Positions 1-7,606 of a stretch of 49,578 nt of DNA are shown here, piece after piece. The notes below the pieces were generated by a model. That model did not search any database and was not told where the DNA came from. It was given only the letters and a program-made list of their open reading frames with translations. The translations under genes and the position numbers were made by a program. The stretch covers positions 1 through 49,578 of the forward strand of contig CANRFC010000022.1 in the NCBI GenBank assembly GCA_947629795.1, given 5' to 3'. This DNA is from an uncultured Oscillospiraceae bacterium. GTDB taxonomy: Bacteria > Bacillota > Clostridia > Oscillospirales > Oscillospiraceae. Position 1 is the first letter of the stretch, and each line of letters opens with the position of its first letter.

Positions 1-686
1 CCCACGTTGTCGGCGATGGTGGCGGGGTTGCGGGGGTCGTCCTCGGGGATGCCGGCCTCCACCTTGCCCACCAGGTCGGCGCCCACGTCGGCGGCCTTGG
101 TGTAGATACCGCCGCCCACCCGGGCAAACAGGGCCATGAAGGAGGCGCCCATGCCGTTCATCACCATGATGTTGCCCAGCTGGACGGGGTCGTCAATGCC
201 GGCGCCGAAGTGGAGGATGCAGAACCACAGGAAGATGTCCAGCATGCCCAGGCCCACCACGGTGAAGCCCATGACGCTGCCGGCGGAGAAGGCCACCCGG
301 AGGCCCCGGTTCAGGCCCTCGGAGGCGGCGTTGGCGGTGCGGGCGTTGGAGTTGGTGGCGATCCTCATGCCGATGAAGCCGGAGAGCATGGAGAACACGC
401 CGCCGGTGACAAAGGCGAAGGGCGTGAACACCGAGAGCATCTGCCCGCCGGTGCCGAAGGCCACCGCCAGCAAAAGGACGAAGACAATGGCAAAGACCTT
501 GGCCACCGTCTTGTACTGGTGGCTGAGATAGGCGTAGGCACCCTCACGGATGGCGGCTGCGATCTTCTGCATTTTTTCGTTGCCCTCGGAGTAGGTCATG
601 ACCTTGCGGGCTTGGATCACCGCAAAGGCCAGGGCCAGAAGCGCTCCGACCAGGCCGATCCAGAACAGGTTTTCTACGTGTTGCAT
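1..686 (-). CDS. hppA: Membrane-bound ion-translocating pyrophosphatase, N-terminal part (runs off the window)
   Basis: The first 228 codons of an integral-membrane pyrophosphatase, which hydrolyses PPi to pump H+ or Na+. The ATG at 684-686 follows GGAGG in the leader. Seen: hydrophobic segments at residues ~5-25, ~58-80, ~83-105 and ~130-155, and near the window edge the family signature GGGIYTKAADVGADLVGK, which holds the PPi/Mg-binding DxxADLVGK motif. The usual length is about 650-700 residues, so two thirds lie outside. The residues that separate K+-dependent from K+-independent types, and Na+ from H+ pumps, are not in view. The 170 bases upstream hold no other gene, so it probably has its own promoter. 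Confidence 0.93.
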   Translation of the reverse strand, partial: MQHVENLFWIGLVGALLALAFAVIQARKVMTYSEGNEKMQKIAAAIREGAYAYLSHQYKTVAKVFAIVFVLLLAVAFGTGGQMLSVFTPFAFVTGGVFSMLSGFIGMRIATNSNARTANAASEGLNRGLRVAFSAGSVMGFTVVGLGMLDIFLWFCILHFGAGIDDPVQLGNIMVMNGMGASFMALFARVGGGIYTKAADVGADLVGKVEAGIPEDDPRNPATIADNV

Positions 687-856: not shown

Positions 857-1606
857 TCACATCCGGGTGCGATCCTGGGTGACGCTGATGGTATGGGGGT
901 CGCTGGTCAGGTCGGAGAAGAACTTCTGCATCCTCTCCCCGGCCGCCCGGCCTCCAAAATTGGCTTTGAAACAGATGTGGAAGGTGCCCTTCCCCTCGTC
1001 CTGCTCCACCTCGGTGCTGGTGACGGTGGCGTCGGCCGCCACGGCCAGGCGGTGGATGAGGTCCAGGGTGTAGACGATGTCCTCGCAGGTGACCGAGTAT
1101 GTATAGAGGGCGTAGTGGTTCTTCATCAGGAGATTCTGCAATTTCTCGAAGATGACCAGAGTCACCATCATACATCCCGCGCCCACAAGGCCCACGGCGT
1201 AGTAGCCTCCGCCTACGGCCACGCCCAGGCAGGCCACCGCCCAGATGCTGGCGGCGGTGGTCAGGCCCTTGATGGTGGGGCCCTCCTTCATGATGGTGCC
1301 GGCGCCCAGGAAGCCGATGCCGGTGATGACCTGGGCGCTGAGACGGGCCGGGTCAGGGGTGGCGCCGTAGGCACGGTACTGCCAGAAAATGAGCTGGCTG
1401 GTGATCATCACCGCGCAGGCGCCCACCGCCACCAGCATGTGGGTGCGCATGCCGGCGGGCCGGTGGGTGAACTCCCGCTCGGTGCCGATCATGGCTCCGA
1501 TGAGCATGGTGCACATCAGGCGAAGAAGGATGTCCCAGACGCTCAGCTCCAGGGCTGAGAGGTCCAGGGTGGCCGCGGCTGCGGCAGCAGTCGCCGCTGT
1601 TGGCAT
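857..1606 (-). CDS. MgtC/SapB family membrane protein
   Basis: A 249-residue protein with the MgtC-type N-terminal membrane domain at ~22-155. Family-like motifs seen are IGAMIGTEREFTHRPAGMRTH, GIGFLGAGTI and GLTTAASIWAVACLG. A C-terminal soluble region (~165-249) looks like the small ACT-like domain of longer MgtC homologues. MgtC proteins are linked to Mg2+ stress, membrane potential and acid adaptation; their chemistry is not settled. The N-terminus is unusually alanine-rich. The ATG follows GAGG by 8 bases. It starts 39 bases after the mutase-like gene ends and could be the last gene of that operon. Confidence 0.85.
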   Translation of the reverse strand: MPTAATAAAAAATLDLSALELSVWDILLRLMCTMLIGAMIGTEREFTHRPAGMRTHMLVAVGACAVMITSQLIFWQYRAYGATPDPARLSAQVITGIGFLGAGTIMKEGPTIKGLTTAASIWAVACLGVAVGGGYYAVGLVGAGCMMVTLVIFEKLQNLLMKNHYALYTYSVTCEDIVYTLDLIHRLAVAADATVTSTEVEQDEGKGTFHICFKANFGGRAAGERMQKFFSDLTSDPHTISVTQDRTRM

Positions 1607-1645: not shown

Positions 1646-3208
1646 TTACTGATACTGCTCGCCCTTGCCCAGGGTCATGCACTCGTAGGCCTTCTGGACC
1701 TTGGCGTAGTTGCCGTCCCGGTCCAGGGCGATGCCCCGGCCCACGCCGTCCACGATCTCGCCCCGGCCCAGGGCCTCCAGTTTCTCGTCCAGCGCCCGGA
1801 GCATGGCGGGGGCGCTGCCCGGCTCGGTGGAGCGGCCGTCGAAGATGATGTGGTAGTAGACGTGCTCCACACCCTCGGCCATCTCGGTGAGCATCAGGGG
1901 GTAGTCGATGCAGCCGTGGCTGGACTTCTCGGTGAGGTAGGCGATGAGGTGGAGGGCGCCGGTCTTCTTCGCCCCCTCGATGGCGTGGAGGAAGACGGGG
2001 TTGCGCTTGAAGTCGCCGCTCTGGATGGCGGCGTCCATGCGCACGTCGTCCTGGGCCACCACCCGGCCGGCACCCAGGTTGGAGTGGCCGGCCTCGGAGT
2101 TGCCGGGCTTGCCGGCCTGGAGACCCACATCCTCGCCAGAGGCGTGGAGCTTGCTGTTGGGATAGGTGGCCAGCAGCTTATCCCAGTCGGGGGTGTCGGC
2201 CAGGAAGATGCCGTCGCCGTCGTCGTGGGTGCCGTAGCCCCAGCCGTCCAGGATGATGAGCATCATCTTGCGGCTGGTGAAGTCAGCGGTGGTGATGAGG
2301 GTCTCGCCGGTCATCTCAGCGGGCTTCTCCAGGCCCAGCACCGACAGGACGGTGGGGGCCACATCCCCCAGGCGGCCGTCCCGGAGCTCCACCGGCCGAC
2401 CCTGGGGGTCCATGACGATGAAGGGCACCAGGTTGGTGGTGTGGGCCACATGGGGCTTGCCCTTGGCGTCGTAGAGGGCCTCGATGTTGCCGTGGTCGGC
2501 GGTGACCGCCACCACGTAGCCGTGGGCCTTGGCGTACTCCGAGACCTGGCTGACGTACTTGCTGATGGTGGCGGCAGCCACCAGCTTGGCGTCGGTGTTG
2601 GCGGTGTGGCCGATGACGTCGCCGTTGGCGAAGTTGGTGAGGATGAAGTCAAACCCCTCGTCCACGGCGCCCTTCACCTTCTCGGCCACCTGGGGCAGGC
2701 TCAGCTCGGGCTTCTGGTCAAAGGGGATGCCCTTGGGAGAGGGCACCCGGACGTCGGTCTCGCCGGGGAAGGGCTCGTTGCGCCCGCCGTTGAAGAAGAA
2801 GGTCACGTGGGCGTACTTCTCGCTCTCGGCGCAGTGGAACTGGGTCAGGCCGGCCTCGGAGAGGACCTGGGCCAGGGGCATCTTCACCTTCTCGGGGGCG
2901 AAGGCGATGGGCAGGTCCTTGAACTTGTCGTGGTACATGGTCATGATGACGAACTCCAGGTCCTTCATGTAGTCCCTGGGGAACTTGTCAAAGTCGGGCT
3001 GGGTAAAGGCCTCGGTGAGCTCGATCTCCCGCTCGCCCCGGCGGCAGCAGAAGACCACGTGGTCCCCGTCCCCGATCTTGCCCACGGGCTTGCCCTCGGC
3101 ATCCACCAGGGCCATGGGCTCCAGATAGTAGTCGGTCAGGCCCTTGGCGTAGGCGGCCTCCACGGCCTTGGCCAGGGCCTCGCCGCCACGGGAAAGTTTG
3201 TCGCTCAT
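1646..3208 (-). CDS. Circularly permuted iPGM-like (phosphoglycerate mutase) enzyme
   Basis: All blocks of cofactor-independent phosphoglycerate mutase are present but in rotated order. Residues 1-305 match the usual second half, from the loop before the AYxxGxTDxY segment to the EMTGxSLI end. A short linker (306-313) leads into the usual N-terminus (MLIILDGWG, ~316). The protein ends in KAYECMTLGKGE, which is normally mid-protein. Phosphatase-site residues are kept: D321, S371 (GNSEAGH), D197, H201, D238/H239, H256, K131. The substrate pocket has drifted: GRD is GRS (460) and the RYYxMDRDxRW block is RGIALDRDGNY (490-501). The length (520) is normal. It is fifth in the HAD operon, 12 bases after the previous gene. 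Activity as a true glycolytic mutase is uncertain. Confidence 0.85.
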   Translation of the reverse strand: MSDKLSRGGEALAKAVEAAYAKGLTDYYLEPMALVDAEGKPVGKIGDGDHVVFCCRRGEREIELTEAFTQPDFDKFPRDYMKDLEFVIMTMYHDKFKDLPIAFAPEKVKMPLAQVLSEAGLTQFHCAESEKYAHVTFFFNGGRNEPFPGETDVRVPSPKGIPFDQKPELSLPQVAEKVKGAVDEGFDFILTNFANGDVIGHTANTDAKLVAAATISKYVSQVSEYAKAHGYVVAVTADHGNIEALYDAKGKPHVAHTTNLVPFIVMDPQGRPVELRDGRLGDVAPTVLSVLGLEKPAEMTGETLITTADFTSRKMMLIILDGWGYGTHDDGDGIFLADTPDWDKLLATYPNSKLHASGEDVGLQAGKPGNSEAGHSNLGAGRVVAQDDVRMDAAIQSGDFKRNPVFLHAIEGAKKTGALHLIAYLTEKSSHGCIDYPLMLTEMAEGVEHVYYHIIFDGRSTEPGSAPAMLRALDEKLEALGRGEIVDGVGRGIALDRDGNYAKVQKAYECMTLGKGEQYQ

Positions 3209-3220
3209 ATTGCTTCCTCC

Positions 3221-3955
3221 TTACTTGTGGAGCGTTGGAAAGATGTCCAGCAGCTCGGAAAAATGGTGGATGAACACGTCGGGCTTGTTCTCCTCGGTGA
3301 CCTCCTGGGGCTTTTTGTTGGGGTACTGGACCCCCACGGTCATGCCCAGGCCGGCGGCCTTGGCCCCCACGATATCCCGGTTCAGGTTGTCCCCCACGTA
3401 GCAGGTGCGCGCGGGGTCGGAGCCGGTCTCGGCCAGGGCGTAGTAGTAAATGGCGGGGTGGGGCTTGCGGATGAGGCACACCGAGGACTGCTGCACGCTC
3501 TTGAAGTAGGGCCGCAGGTGGTCCCGGTCCAGCCAATCGTCCACCTCCTCGGTGCCCACCAGGTCGCTGACGATGGCCAGGGTGTAGCCCCGCCGATAGA
3601 GCTCCTTGACCGTCTCGATGCCCCCGTCGGTGACCACCCGCTCCCCCTTGGTCTTGCGGTAGGCCCAGGTCATCTCGGCGGCGTGGGCCTTCACCACATC
3701 CTGAGGGAAGTCGTAGGCCAGCCAGCGGGTCCACAGGACCTCCACCGGGGCCTCGCAGTAGTAGGTCAGGGCCCAGTCCCGGTACTTGTTGTACCGGGGC
3801 TCGATGACCCTCTCGTAGAAGGCGTCCGGGTCCTCGTCCACCCCCAGGCAGCGGGTGATGACCCCCCGGGCCTCCCGCTCGTAGGCCCGGTCCTTCCGGA
3901 TGACCCGGAAGGTGTCGCCCAGGTCGATAAAGATGGTGTCAATGTTCTTTTCCAT
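3221..3955 (-). CDS. HAD-superfamily hydrolase-like protein, copy 1 of 4
   Basis: A 244-residue Rossmann-type HAD protein with a helical cap. Motif I is IDLGDT, so the second catalytic Asp of the usual DxDxT is Gly. Motif II is IVSDL, the motif III lysine is in RKPHP, and motif IV is GDNLNRD. It shares long blocks with the next two genes (YRDWAL, a W/L-rich cap, RKPxPxIY, GAKAAG), so the three are paralogues. Gaps of 12-15 bases place it in one operon with its neighbours. The family mostly contains small-molecule phosphatases; the substrate here is unknown. Confidence 0.85.
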   Translation of the reverse strand: MEKNIDTIFIDLGDTFRVIRKDRAYEREARGVITRCLGVDEDPDAFYERVIEPRYNKYRDWALTYYCEAPVEVLWTRWLAYDFPQDVVKAHAAEMTWAYRKTKGERVVTDGGIETVKELYRRGYTLAIVSDLVGTEEVDDWLDRDHLRPYFKSVQQSSVCLIRKPHPAIYYYALAETGSDPARTCYVGDNLNRDIVGAKAAGLGMTVGVQYPNKKPQEVTEENKPDVFIHHFSELLDIFPTLHK

Positions 3956-3970
3956 GCTGTTCCCCCCCTG

Positions 3971-4693
3971 TTACTGCAAAATGGGCAGGTCCAAAATGTC
4001 CAGAAACCTGTGGACGATGTAGTCGGGCCGGTTGGCGTCGGTGATGGTCTTCTTGGCCAGCTTCTCGGGGCTGATGAAGAGGATGTTGGCCCCGATCTCC
4101 GCCGCCTTGGCCCCGGTGATGTCCCGGCTGAGGTTGTCGGCCACCGAGGCACACTCCCCCGGCTCCAGGCCCAGCTCCCGGCAGCCCATGCGGTACATCT
4201 CCGGGTCGGGCTTGCGGATGTGGCACACCGAGGAGAGGACCACGGTGTCGAAATACTGCTCCAGGCCGTCGTCCTTGAGCCAGTCGTAGATCTCGTACTC
4301 CCCGATGAGGTTGGAGATGATGCCCAGCTTGTAGCCCCGCGCCTTCAGGGTCCGGATGACCTCCACGCCCCCGTCCACCACGTGGCGCAGGCCCTTGGCC
4401 TGGCGGTACTGGAAGGTGATCTCGTGGCAGATCTCCCGCAGCTTCCCCTCGGGGAGTTCAGGCAGGAGCCACTTTGCCCAGAGGTCGTAGTCGCCGCACT
4501 CCTTGTTCTCGGACAGGGCCCAGTCCCGGTAGGGCGCGTAGCGCTCCTCCACCATGGCGTAAAAGCGCTCCACGTCCTCATACCCGGCCAGCTCGGCCAT
4601 CCGGGCCCGGGCCTTTGCCATGTGCTCGGGGATCTCCTCGGCGATGCGGAGGGTGCCCCCCAGGTCGAAAAAGACGCCCTTGATCTTCTCCAT
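3971..4693 (-). CDS. HAD-superfamily hydrolase-like protein, copy 2 of 4
   Basis: A 240-residue paralogue of the flanking HAD proteins. Motif I is FFDLGGT, keeping the nucleophile Asp but with Gly at the +2 general acid position. Motif II is IISN and the motif III lysine is in RKPDP. Motif IV reads ADNLSRD, so the usual GD is AD. Two departures from the catalytic set make ordinary phosphatase activity less sure than for a typical family member. It lies 15 bases upstream of copy 1 and only 4 bases downstream of copy 3, so translation is probably coupled. Confidence 0.85.
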   Translation of the reverse strand: MEKIKGVFFDLGGTLRIAEEIPEHMAKARARMAELAGYEDVERFYAMVEERYAPYRDWALSENKECGDYDLWAKWLLPELPEGKLREICHEITFQYRQAKGLRHVVDGGVEVIRTLKARGYKLGIISNLIGEYEIYDWLKDDGLEQYFDTVVLSSVCHIRKPDPEMYRMGCRELGLEPGECASVADNLSRDITGAKAAEIGANILFISPEKLAKKTITDANRPDYIVHRFLDILDLPILQ

Positions 4694-4697
4694 GGCC

Positions 4698-5429
4698 TTA
4701 CCCCCTGGCGGGAAACAGGTCCAGCAGCTCGGGGATGGACTTGATCTTGAAGTCGGGCTCCACCGTGGGGGCCTTGCCCTCCCGGTCGGCGGTGCCGGCG
4801 TCCTCGAAGAGGACCATGGCGCCGTAGCCGGCGTTCACTGCCCCCTCCACGTCCCGGACGGGGTTGTCGCCCACATAGGCGCAGTTCCGGGGCTGGGAGC
4901 CGATGCACCGGGCTGCCAGGAGATAAATGGCGGGGTCGGGCTTGCGCAGGCGGACCTTGGAGGAGAGGATCACCGTCTTGAAGCAGTCGGCCACGTGGTC
5001 CCGGCACATCCAGTCGGGGATCTCGGTCTCGGTGACGGTGTTGGCGATGATGCCCAGCTTATAGCCCCGCCTGGTGAGCTCCCGCAGGGTCTCCAGGGTG
5101 CCGTCGTGGACCACCCGGCGGCCGTCGTGGTCCCGCCACAGGCGGGTGAGCCGGGCGGCGTTGGGGGCCACCTTGTCGGCGGGGTAGTCGGGCAGCAGAT
5201 ACTGGAGCCACAGCTCCATCTCAGACACGTCCAGCAGGTCCTTCTTGGCCCACTTGCGGTAGGCGTTCCAGTTGGCGGTGAGCTTTTCAAAGAACAGGTC
5301 GTGGGGCTCGGTGGCCCCCACCAGCTCCATGAGCTCCTTCTCCGCCGCGGCGGCGAACTCCGGGTCCTCCACCACATAGCGCAGGGTGGCGCCCACATCA
5401 AAGAAGATAGTATCAATACTGCGATCCAT
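4698..5429 (-). CDS. HAD-superfamily hydrolase-like protein, copy 3 of 4
   Basis: A 243-residue paralogue. Motif I is FFDVGAT (Gly at the +2 position). The motif II serine/threonine position reads IIANT, so an Ala replaces the usual Ser. The motif III lysine is kept in RKPDP and motif IV is GDNPVRD. The cap region matches copies 1 and 2 (YRKWAK, RRVVHDG). The start follows AAAGGAGGAGACAGC. The loss of both the +2 Asp and the motif II Ser suggests divergence in chemistry or a binding role, which is inference. Confidence 0.83.
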   Translation of the reverse strand: MDRSIDTIFFDVGATLRYVVEDPEFAAAAEKELMELVGATEPHDLFFEKLTANWNAYRKWAKKDLLDVSEMELWLQYLLPDYPADKVAPNAARLTRLWRDHDGRRVVHDGTLETLRELTRRGYKLGIIANTVTETEIPDWMCRDHVADCFKTVILSSKVRLRKPDPAIYLLAARCIGSQPRNCAYVGDNPVRDVEGAVNAGYGAMVLFEDAGTADREGKAPTVEPDFKIKSIPELLDLFPARG

Positions 5430-5443
5430 TGCTGTCTCCTCCT

Positions 5444-6199
5444 TTATTTCTCGTTTTCCTTGGCGATGATGGCGGGGATCTCGGCGAGATCCTCAATGAG
5501 GTAGTCCGGGGGGAATTCGGCCTGAGACAGGCCCTTGTCCCGGTGGGCCACACCGGGGTTCTTGATCTGGATCATGGTCCGCCACCCGGCGCTGCGGGTC
5601 CCCCGCACGTCCCGGGAGATGGTGTCCCCCACGTAGGCCAGCTCCTCGGGCTTCAGGCCCAGGGCCGCCTCGGCCACCCGGAAGATGCCGGGGTCGGGCT
5701 TGCGGATGCCGGTCTCGCAGGAGGTGACGACGCACTCCATGTATCCGTCGATGCCGTATTCCCGCAGGAAGTGGGGCACCACCGAACGGGAGATGATGTT
5801 GCTGATCATACCCATGCGGATGCCCATTTCGTGGAGCCGGGCCAGGGTCTCGGCCAGGTGGGGCCGGCGCATGATCCTGGGCCGCTCGTAATCGTAGAGG
5901 AAGCTCAGCTCCTCCGACATGGGCTCCAGTTGGGCCGGGGTGAGACCGAAGTCCCGCAAGTACCAGTTGGCCCAGACCTCCGCCGTGGGATATTCCCGCA
6001 GGTCGGCCTCGGTCATGTGCTTGTAATCCTCGGCGTTCACCGCCAGGCGCCTGGCCAGGTCCTCGGGGGTGGTGTCCAGCCTGACGCCGTAGTCCCCCAG
6101 CCGGTCTATGACCCGCCGGGCAAACCAGACCTCCCGGCCGGGCGGAGAGTCGCTGACGTGGAGGGTCCCGCCCAGATCGAACAAAACCGCTTGGATCAT
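5444..6199 (-). CDS. HAD-superfamily hydrolase-like protein, copy 4 of 4, first gene of the operon
   Basis: The most divergent of the four HAD proteins, 251 residues from the ATG at 6197-6199, which has AAAGGAG upstream. An upstream in-frame start at 6229 would place coding sequence over the operator, so it is rejected. Motif I is LFDLGGT (Gly at +2), motif II MISN, motif III lysine in RKPDP, motif IV GDTISRD. As the first gene after the strong promoter at 6255-6283 it sets expression of the whole run. Its function is unknown beyond the fold. Confidence 0.84.
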   Translation of the reverse strand: MIQAVLFDLGGTLHVSDSPPGREVWFARRVIDRLGDYGVRLDTTPEDLARRLAVNAEDYKHMTEADLREYPTAEVWANWYLRDFGLTPAQLEPMSEELSFLYDYERPRIMRRPHLAETLARLHEMGIRMGMISNIISRSVVPHFLREYGIDGYMECVVTSCETGIRKPDPGIFRVAEAALGLKPEELAYVGDTISRDVRGTRSAGWRTMIQIKNPGVAHRDKGLSQAEFPPDYLIEDLAEIPAIIAKENEK

Positions 6200-6224
6200 C
6201 CCGCTCACTCCTTTCCCTTGGGGA

Positions 6225-6238
6225 AGCAAACGTTTTCA
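6225..6238. promoter_or_regulatory. LacI-type operator in front of the HAD/mutase operon
   Basis: The palindrome AAACGTTT at 6228-6235 is centred about 17 bases downstream of the expected transcription start of the minus-strand operon. The same 8-mer occurs near the start of the divergent LacI-family gene. LacI-family operators often have a central CG within A/T flanks. Repression by that LacI protein is inferred from position. Confidence 0.65.
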
Positions 6239-6586: not shown

Positions 6587-7606
6587 ATGAAAAATGTGAC
6601 CATCAAGGATGTGGCCAAGGCCGCCGGCGTGTCCTACTCCACCGTCTCCCGCGCCCTGTCCGGCAGCCCCGAGATCAGCACGGACACCAGGGAACGCATC
6701 CTTCAGGTCTGCAAGGAGATGCACTACACCGCCAACACCGTGGCCCGGTCCATGGTCATGAGGTCCACCAAGCTGCTGGGGCTCATCCTCACCGGGGTGA
6801 ACAACCCCTTCATGTCCGAGCTGGCCTATCACATCGACCGCCAGGCCCGGGCCCGAGGATACAACATCATCCTGTGCAACTCCGGCCGGGACCTGGACCA
6901 GGAGAAGGAGCTCTTTGAGCTGATGATCGGCCGGCAGGTGGACGGCATCGTCCTGCTCCCCTCAGGGCCGGAGAGCTACGAGTCCCTCCACCCCTATCTG
7001 GAGTGCATCCCCACCGTCTTTGTGGGAGAAAACCTCCGGGACGCCCAGGAGAGCTACGTGTCAGTGGACAACTACCGGGGGGCCTACATCGGAGTGGAGT
7101 ACCTCCACCGCCTGGGCCACCGGAACATCCTCTACTTCGGCCGCCGCCGGGGGAGCACCACCCACCAGCTCCGGGCCGAGGGCTACGCCGCCGCCTGCCA
7201 GGACCTGGGCCTGGAGCCCCAGTACTGCAACAACACCTTCTCCTCCACCTCCATCAAGTACGGCTATCAGCTGGCCAAGCAGCTCTTTGCCCAGGAGCGG
7301 CACTACACCGCCATCTTCGCCGCCACCGACACCAACGCCCTGGGCATCCTCCAGGCCGCCGAGGAGATGAACATCCGCATCCCTGAGGACTTCTCCCTGC
7401 TGGGCTTTGACAACATCCAGTACAGCTCCCTGCCCCGCATCGAGCTGACCACCATCGAGCAGCCCATGAAGATGCTGGCCTCGGTGGCGGTGGACAGCCT
7501 GCTGGAGAAGGTGCAGAACGAGCTGGCGGGGTACTCCCACCGGGTGCTCATGCCCACCCTGGTGGAGCGCTCCTCCTGCCGGGCCCTCCCCCGCGCCGAG
7601 GGCTGA
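6587..7606 (+). CDS. LacI-family transcriptional regulator
   Basis: A 339-residue repressor of normal family length. The N-terminal helix-turn-helix is at residues 4-23 (TIKDVAKAAGVSYSTVSRAL), followed by the hinge (~45-58) and a type-I periplasmic-binding-like sensor domain (~60-330, with GLILTGVNNPFMSEL and FAATDTNALGILQAAEE). The ATG follows GAGGAGGG. It is read divergently from the HAD/mutase operon, and matching palindromes lie in both promoters, so it probably controls that operon and itself. The effector is unknown; the family usually senses sugars or nucleosides. No sugar transporter is nearby. Confidence 0.93.
   Translation: MKNVTIKDVAKAAGVSYSTVSRALSGSPEISTDTRERILQVCKEMHYTANTVARSMVMRSTKLLGLILTGVNNPFMSELAYHIDRQARARGYNIILCNSGRDLDQEKELFELMIGRQVDGIVLLPSGPESYESLHPYLECIPTVFVGENLRDAQESYVSVDNYRGAYIGVEYLHRLGHRNILYFGRRRGSTTHQLRAEGYAAACQDLGLEPQYCNNTFSSTSIKYGYQLAKQLFAQERHYTAIFAATDTNALGILQAAEEMNIRIPEDFSLLGFDNIQYSSLPRIELTTIEQPMKMLASVAVDSLLEKVQNELAGYSHRVLMPTLVERSSCRALPRAEG

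Follow-up and report, generated by a model that had tools for sequence, protein, structure and literature searches.

The gene at positions 1646-3208 of the window, the term used here for the whole stretch of 49,578 nucleotides analysed, raises the question of whether a central glycolytic enzyme can exist in nature with its two halves in exchanged order, and what reaction such an enzyme would catalyze. The gene is a reverse-strand ORF of 520 amino acids, complete from ATG to stop, which a preliminary sequence-only reading had interpreted as a circularly permuted form of the cofactor-independent phosphoglycerate mutase (iPGM), with an altered pocket and possibly a new substrate.

The exchanged order was recovered by Pfam, NCBIfam, and phmmer, which bears out the first part of this interpretation. 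The Metalloenzyme family of Pfam matches residues 104-295 and iPGM_N matches residues 392-518, that is, the C-terminal part of the iPGM comes first. Against the canonical enzyme of B. stearothermophilus (1ejj), phmmer pairs residues 15-306 of the protein with 219-510, and residues 313-519 with 4-213, which means that the halves are swapped and that both are nearly complete. The linker between the old ends was overestimated at eight residues, given that the alignment leaves about six (residues 307-312). With the NCBIfam model TIGR01307 (iPGM), whose cut-off is 330.65 bits, the protein reaches 467.6 bits, a sum over two out-of-order stretches, the better of which places residues 12-305 on model positions 213-504; the single stretches of the permuted proteins score under the cut-off. 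As the summed score exceeds the cut-off, automatic annotation can count this protein as glycolytic. The linear order (N-terminal part of the phosphatase domain, transferase domain, C-terminal part of the phosphatase domain) is absent, and the protein has instead what defines a circular permutant, with both halves complete, in swapped order, and a short linker joining the old ends (Table 1).

Table 1. Features of the window and of one distant locus. Positions refer to the window unless a locus is named; cp-iPGM is the circularly permuted iPGM homologue.
Feature	Positions	Strand	Basis or remark
Membrane-pyrophosphatase-like protein, N-terminal part	1..686	-	Presumptive family label; contig C33 of this genome ends with a homologous C-terminal part
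MgtC-like membrane protein, next gene downstream of cp-iPGM	857..1606	-	Presumptive family label
cp-iPGM, 520 amino acids	1646..3208	-	Pfam, NCBIfam, phmmer
cp-iPGM residues 313-519 (B. stearothermophilus iPGM 4-213): old N-terminus, nucleophile Ser, first part of the transferase domain	1652..2272	-	Pfam, phmmer
Ser371 codon (Ser62 in the B. stearothermophilus enzyme), phosphoserine nucleophile as judged by homology	2096..2098	-	Residue alignment
cp-iPGM linker, residues 307-312, old C-terminus to old N-terminus	2273..2290	-	phmmer alignment
cp-iPGM residues 8-306 (B. stearothermophilus iPGM 212-510): second part of the transferase domain and C-terminal part of the phosphatase domain	2291..3187	-	
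HAD-1, DLGDT motif, 12 bp upstream of cp-iPGM	3221..3955	-	
HAD-2, DLGGT motif	3971..4693	-	
HAD-3, DVGAT motif	4698..5429	-	
HAD-4, DLGGT motif	5444..6229	-	True start may lie further downstream
LacI-family regulator, divergent	6587..7606	+	Pfam and NCBIfam on its orthologue in L032
cDPG synthetase homologue, PhnSUT2-like ABC transporter, cp-iPGM	L118:3143-9990		

In the canonical iPGM, the transferase domain is an insertion within the phosphatase domain. The new ends of the cp-iPGM are located inside the transferase domain, and the nesting is therefore inverted. Superposition of a predicted structure, which had been suggested as a check, covers one of the halves: in the AlphaFold2 model (64 sequences, pLDDT 86.3, pTM 0.78), residues 8-306 match residues 212-510 of 1ejj when order-bound aligners are used. 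A match over one half is what a permutation predicts for aligners of this type. Beyond the iPGMs, the fold search recovered phosphopentomutases and sulfatases, which match mainly the phosphatase part.

The permutation is not peculiar to the window. In a scan of genome contigs, from which the best 80 of 111 relatives were kept, all 80 kept loci cross the permuted junction, and the same junction is found in at least 94 sequences, comprising the window, genomes G089 and G817, these 80 loci, and 11 distant genomes. Genome G089 is the only permuted case other than the window genome among 394 genomes of the order, and G817 is the only other genome matched through both halves in a sample of the class (n = 391). 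The distant group (group 2) was recovered, with identities of 40-44%, from 11 of 398 genomes sampled from the phylum. None of 59 relatives of the window genome carries the permuted enzyme (three incomplete genomes have no match of any kind), and the cp-iPGM may thus have been acquired, or else lost by these relatives. An assembly artefact joining two gene copies, the outcome that was to overturn the reading, is vanishingly improbable and was discarded, given that no point was found in its favor and that the same order, junction, and substitutions recur in independent genomes and in a second deep group.

Six cut or broken sequences (L073, L080, L087, L088, and L091 among the 80 kept loci, and L109 of group 2) were left out of the alignments, and the residues of 88 permuted sequences (78 of group 1 and 10 of group 2) were compared with those of 22 canonical ones. 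In FastTree phylogenies of 31 of these 88 sequences (21 of the 78 in group 1, all 10 in group 2) and the 22 canonical enzymes, rooted on one canonical sequence, the permuted clade is recovered with a support of 1.0 in the full tree, 0.991 for the N-terminal half, and 0.997 for the C-terminal half. Group 1 is supported at 0.387 in the full tree, and at 0.891 and 0.877 in the half trees. As judged from the sequences, the permuted enzymes are one clade by either half, and the two halves have a common history. The circular permutation, apparently a single ancient event, would have moved the ends of the iPGM into the transferase domain, leaving the phosphatase domain nested inside it, rather than the reverse.

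The catalytic machinery is conserved. The metal ligands and the nucleophile of the iPGMs, which we take to be D12, S62, D403, H407, D444, H445, and H462, are kept in all 88 permuted sequences, in agreement with the claim that Ser371 and the ligands had been retained. Nine residues (S62, H123, R153, D154, R185, R191, R261, R264, and K336) are given as substrate contacts in the part of PMC3886921 available here, and eight of these are invariant in the 88 sequences. The exception is position 154, which is Ser in 88/88 permuted sequences and Asp in 22/22 canonical ones. Position 260 is Arg in every permuted sequence, and Phe (21) or Tyr (1) in the canonical set. In the window protein, positions 154 and 260 correspond to Ser460 and Arg56. 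The changes V122 to S, S124 to G, M189 to L, A265 to E, and T334 to S are also fixed in the 88 permuted sequences. Ser at positions 122 and 154, Gly at 124, Leu at 189, and Arg at 260 are universal in the permuted set, and not one of these residues occurs at its position in the 22 canonical sequences. Position 186 is non-aromatic throughout the permuted set, and position 195 is Tyr in 87 of the 88, with further changes in group 2 (N447L in 10/10; D192 to S in nine and to G in one of the ten). The alteration of the pocket noticed in the window protein (GRD to GRS, and RYYxMDRD to RGIALDRD) was confirmed, and the pocket change, in the form of 154 Ser and 260 Arg, is fixed in the 88 sequences.

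The net effect, as read from the alignment, is a gain of about two positive charges within or close to the pocket, together with reduced bulk at position 186. The two-metal, phosphoserine machinery is intact, but the pocket has one acid fewer (D154 to S) and one arginine more (F260 to R), a change that would suit a bulkier or more anionic substrate. The likeness to GpmI (TIGR01307; 1ejj, 1o98, 5vpu) extends to both domains, the two-metal site, the nucleophile Ser, and eight of the nine contacts, and in BLAST pieces the identity to the canonical enzymes of relatives is mostly 34-48% in the C-terminal half and 30-44% in the N-terminal half. The differences are the swapped halves and the residues at positions 122, 124, 154, 186, 189, 195, and 260. 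Whether the order or the pocket changed first could be read from an enzyme that combines the linear order with the altered pocket, and none was found among the 22 canonical sequences checked at position 154.

A normal linear gpmI is present on contig C4 of the window genome, which answers the question of whether the bacterium has a second mutase. A canonical iPGM scores over the cut-off in 20 of the 28 other genomes with the permuted enzyme, one of these copies being broken (G446). Among the remaining eight, G439 and G445 have fragments and G450 has a dPGM over the cut-off, and five have neither iPGM nor dPGM over the cut-off, although these genomes may be incomplete and an archaeal-type iPGM would fall outside the search.

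The surroundings of the gene were surveyed at 82 cp-iPGM loci, with genes called by codon usage in these G+C-rich genomes, and with many loci cut by contig ends. HADs occur at 77 of these loci, LacI regulators at 68, PfkB kinases at 61, PHP proteins at 31, and MgtC-like and membrane-pyrophosphatase-like proteins (both family labels are presumptive) at 28 each. In the window, four co-directional HAD genes precede the cp-iPGM (3221-6229), and HAD neighbors had already been remarked upon in the sequence-only reading. A HAD gene lies directly upstream of the cp-iPGM at 68 loci (median distance 20 bp), and the gene directly downstream encodes a PfkB protein at 23 loci (median 53 bp) or an MgtC-like protein at 22 (33 bp). 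The HADs form five main groups, which track gene position. Of 304 HADs at the 77 loci, 258 have a DxGxT motif, one has another string, and 45 have no recognized motif; the second Asp of DxD was found in none of the recognized motifs, and the HADs may for this reason not be ordinary phosphatases. For the PHP neighbor, no informative solved relative was found.

Among solved structures, the closest to the PfkB neighbor of L032 is TM0415 (E 5.8e-37), which is described, in the part of PMC5931981 available here, as a PPi-dependent myo-inositol kinase of Thermotoga maritima with the key residues K171, F221, R229, R232, and M266, and the PPi-kinase motif RxGRGD. The motif, in the form RTGRGD (R229/R232), is present in 61/61 PfkB neighbors, and the L032 protein keeps K171 and M266 and replaces F221 with Val. 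A PPi-kinase-like protein is found in all 30 genomes with the permuted enzyme, versus nine of the 293 others of the order sample, and these nine lack a permuted match. The T. maritima myo-inositol cluster resembles the loci studied here in its TM0415-like PfkB protein, its RxGRGD motif, and its inositol context, and it differs in the residue at position 221, which is Val in L032, and in that the available part of PMC5931981 mentions no iPGM-like or tandem HAD genes.

A link to inositol also emerges at the edge of the window, which begins inside the pyrophosphatase-like gene. Its positions 1-86 overlap the terminal stretch of another contig of this genome, C33 (86 bp, 2 mismatches), which suggests that C33 and C22, the contig of the window, are neighbors. 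After the pyrophosphatase-like gene, C33 encodes a PfkB kinase and a TIM barrel, then a PHP protein and a regulator on the opposite strand, and further on a type II GAPDH, a PGK-like protein (334 bits, under the model cut-off of 883), a split transketolase, a malate racemase, IolE, an IolB-like protein, IolD, an IolG-like protein, and an ABC transporter. IolD (864 versus 715 bits) and IolE (411 versus 290) exceed their cut-offs, and IolB (91.7 versus 205) and IolG (366 versus 540) fall under theirs. By likeness, the same cluster shares a contig with the cp-iPGM in G429 and G451. The cp-iPGM contig of G447 carries Iol genes and the transporter, with no GAPDH, PGK, or transketolase in the examined part, and that of G428 carries the transporter, with no Iol genes in the examined part. 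Genes for IolG, IolE, and IolD, recognized by likeness, lie within about 20 kb of the cp-iPGM on one contig in G429, G447, and G451.

Across genomes, IolE is found over the cut-off in 26 of the 30 genomes with the permuted enzyme (not in G427, G439, G450, or G817), and the binding protein of the transporter is also found in 26 (not in G439, G440, G443, or G446), versus none of 30 chosen relatives for either protein, a comparison confounded by kinship, as 29 of these relatives, picked by hand, come from the family of the window genome and one from another family, and most of the positives belong to other lineages. Weak IolE-like matches, none over the cut-off, occur in 11 of the 30 negatives. 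Proximity is less general: only four of the 26 genomes (G429, G447, G448, and G451) have IolE and the cp-iPGM within 20 kb of each other on a shared contig, the distance is about 440 kb in G442, and in the other 21, including the window genome, IolE is on a different contig, which may be a neighboring one. In the window genome, IolE probably also lies near the cp-iPGM, across the contig overlap. Of the 26 genomes that have the binding protein, 15 encode it on the contig of the cp-iPGM, within 20 kb of this gene. At 81 loci, transketolase was found at 17, Fe-ADH at 16, IolG at six, IolD at one, and IolE at none.

Given this, a new substrate, as originally proposed, is likely, since a canonical iPGM coexists with the permuted enzyme in the window genome and in 20 of the 28 others, and since inositol genes are associated with the group to which the window belongs; the eight unchanged contacts and the five genomes with neither iPGM nor dPGM weigh on the other side. 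We tentatively prefer, at slightly less than an even chance, a serine-phosphate mutase or phosphatase acting on a non-glycolytic phosphate, perhaps an inositol phosphate, in inositol metabolism. The cp-iPGM would still form phospho-Ser371 and then move or release the phosphate, its substrate would not be simply phosphoglycerate, and its role would be non-glycolytic, which in group 1 would mean the use of inositol or inositol phosphates; the exact substrate is a guess. In the proposed sequence of events, Ser371 would accept the phosphoryl group of a phosphorylated compound of inositol metabolism, for which an inositol phosphate is the most likely candidate, and pass it to an adjacent hydroxyl (mutase) or to water (phosphatase). 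The HADs that accompany the enzyme may act as phosphatases and so supply IolG with free inositol. In the lineage of the window, the gene follows the four HADs and is tied to inositol use through the ABC transporter, IolG/E/B/D, and the PPi-kinase-like protein. A number of points count against this reading, including the eight unchanged contacts, by which activity on phosphoglycerate is possible, the absence of DxD from the HADs, the Val at position 221 of the L032 kinase, and group 2, which has the same pocket, lacks IolE over the cut-off in 11/11 genomes (weak matches in all 11), and partly adjoins a cDPG synthetase homologue. The proximity of IolE in only 4/26 genomes lowers the weight of the preferred reading and raises that of the isozyme considered next.

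A second, regulated phosphoglycerate mutase isozyme, which would perform the 3-PG/2-PG reaction during inositol use, together with the PGK-like protein and type II GAPDH of the cluster, is unlikely, but is the alternative that best survives the evidence. It accords with the retention of eight of the nine contacts and all the metal ligands, with the clusters of G000 (the window genome) and G451, in which type II GAPDH and the PGK-like protein represent the two steps before the mutase (G429 also has the PGK-like protein), and with the five of 28 genomes that have no iPGM or dPGM over the cut-off. These genomes may, however, simply be incomplete, or have an archaeal-type iPGM, and an isozyme would not account for the five residues fixed in 88/88 permuted and 0/22 canonical sequences, nor for the canonical iPGM of the window genome and 20 of the 28 others.

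A rather unlikely candidate is a mutase or phosphatase for a sugar-acid phosphate of the inositol pathway, such as the product of the PfkB kinase, with its carboxylate held by the conserved arginines. R261, R264, R185, and R191 are kept and R260 is added, the PfkB gene follows the cp-iPGM closely at the 23 loci mentioned above, and the IolD and IolB-like proteins of the cluster would, by chemistry that we presume, yield a sugar acid. Yet TM0415, the solved structure that the kinase most resembles, phosphorylates myo-inositol rather than an acid, according to the available part of PMC5931981. Nor are we aware of a step in the pathway that would require such a mutase.

A bolder form of the inositol reading is very unlikely as it stands. 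The cp-iPGM might be a new kind of enzyme, a vicinal inositol-phosphate mutase that moves the axial 2-phosphate left by phytases to a neighboring equatorial hydroxyl through the phosphoserine, which would let the HADs remove the phosphate, with the inositol then converted to D-/L-malate by way of transketolase, and the same scaffold acting on a bisphosphoglycerate in group 2.

An enzyme for 2,3-bisphosphoglycerate or cyclic 2,3-diphosphoglycerate (cDPG), in which the added positive charge holds the second phosphate, is an outside chance, suggested by the charge change at positions 154 and 260, and by the distant loci. In five of the latter (L118, L119, L120, L122, and L125), a cDPG synthetase homologue and a PhnSUT2-like ABC transporter precede the cp-iPGM on the same strand, with a GntR-like regulator at three of the five; the labels derive from family scans of L118, and from the likeness of protein starts at the other loci. 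The L118 homologue matches 9sxb at E 3.9e-130. The cDPG synthetase of Methanothermus fervidus is described in the available part of PMC10690619, and its homologue beside the cp-iPGM differs in being bacterial and in its ABC transporter and cp-iPGM neighbors. Against this, no such gene was noticed in the general survey of the group-1 neighborhoods, and the homologue was not seen at the group-2 loci L121, L123, L126, and L127. A presumably RapZ-like gene lies upstream of the cp-iPGM in L123, L126, and L127, an alpha-phosphohexomutase-like gene lies downstream in L121, L123, and L127, and the contig of L124 begins within the ATPase gene. A PPi-kinase-like protein is found in one of the four group-2 genomes examined (G945).

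Among the matches listed in the PMC open literature, no title or abstract opening reports a permuted iPGM or this inositol cluster, and the string "permut" is absent from the main text of PMC2964296. The cp-iPGM is carried by some gut and rumen bacteria, among them the cultured Oscillibacter valericigenes An860 (L074), with swapped halves and the same pocket change in every copy examined. A natural permutation of a central glycolytic enzyme, with a pocket change fixed across a deep split, provides a clean test of whether domain nesting can open the way to a new specificity.

The gene context also suggests that gut and rumen bacteria have a route for degrading inositol in which transketolase, malate racemase, type II GAPDH, and a PGK-like protein take part, a route of relevance to what becomes of dietary inositol and phytate. 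In L139, L140 (contig C33 of the window genome), L149, and L151, type II GAPDH, PGK-like, split transketolase, and malate racemase (LarAH6) genes accompany IolE/B/D/G. When read from C6, 2-deoxy-5-keto-gluconate, the product of IolB, is a D-threo ketose, the stereochemistry that is accepted by transketolase. On chemical grounds, the removal of a two-carbon unit by transketolase would leave D-malate semialdehyde, which type II GAPDH and the PGK-like protein could convert to D-malate and ATP, and the racemase would then turn D-malate into L-malate. This route would explain why IolC, IolJ, and IolA were not noticed in a general reading of the cluster. A separate observation concerns the RTGRGD PfkB kinases (L032:12550-13434 and 60 orthologues), some of which adjoin the membrane-pyrophosphatase-like gene, a pairing for which a PPi-linked phosphorylation of inositol is possible.
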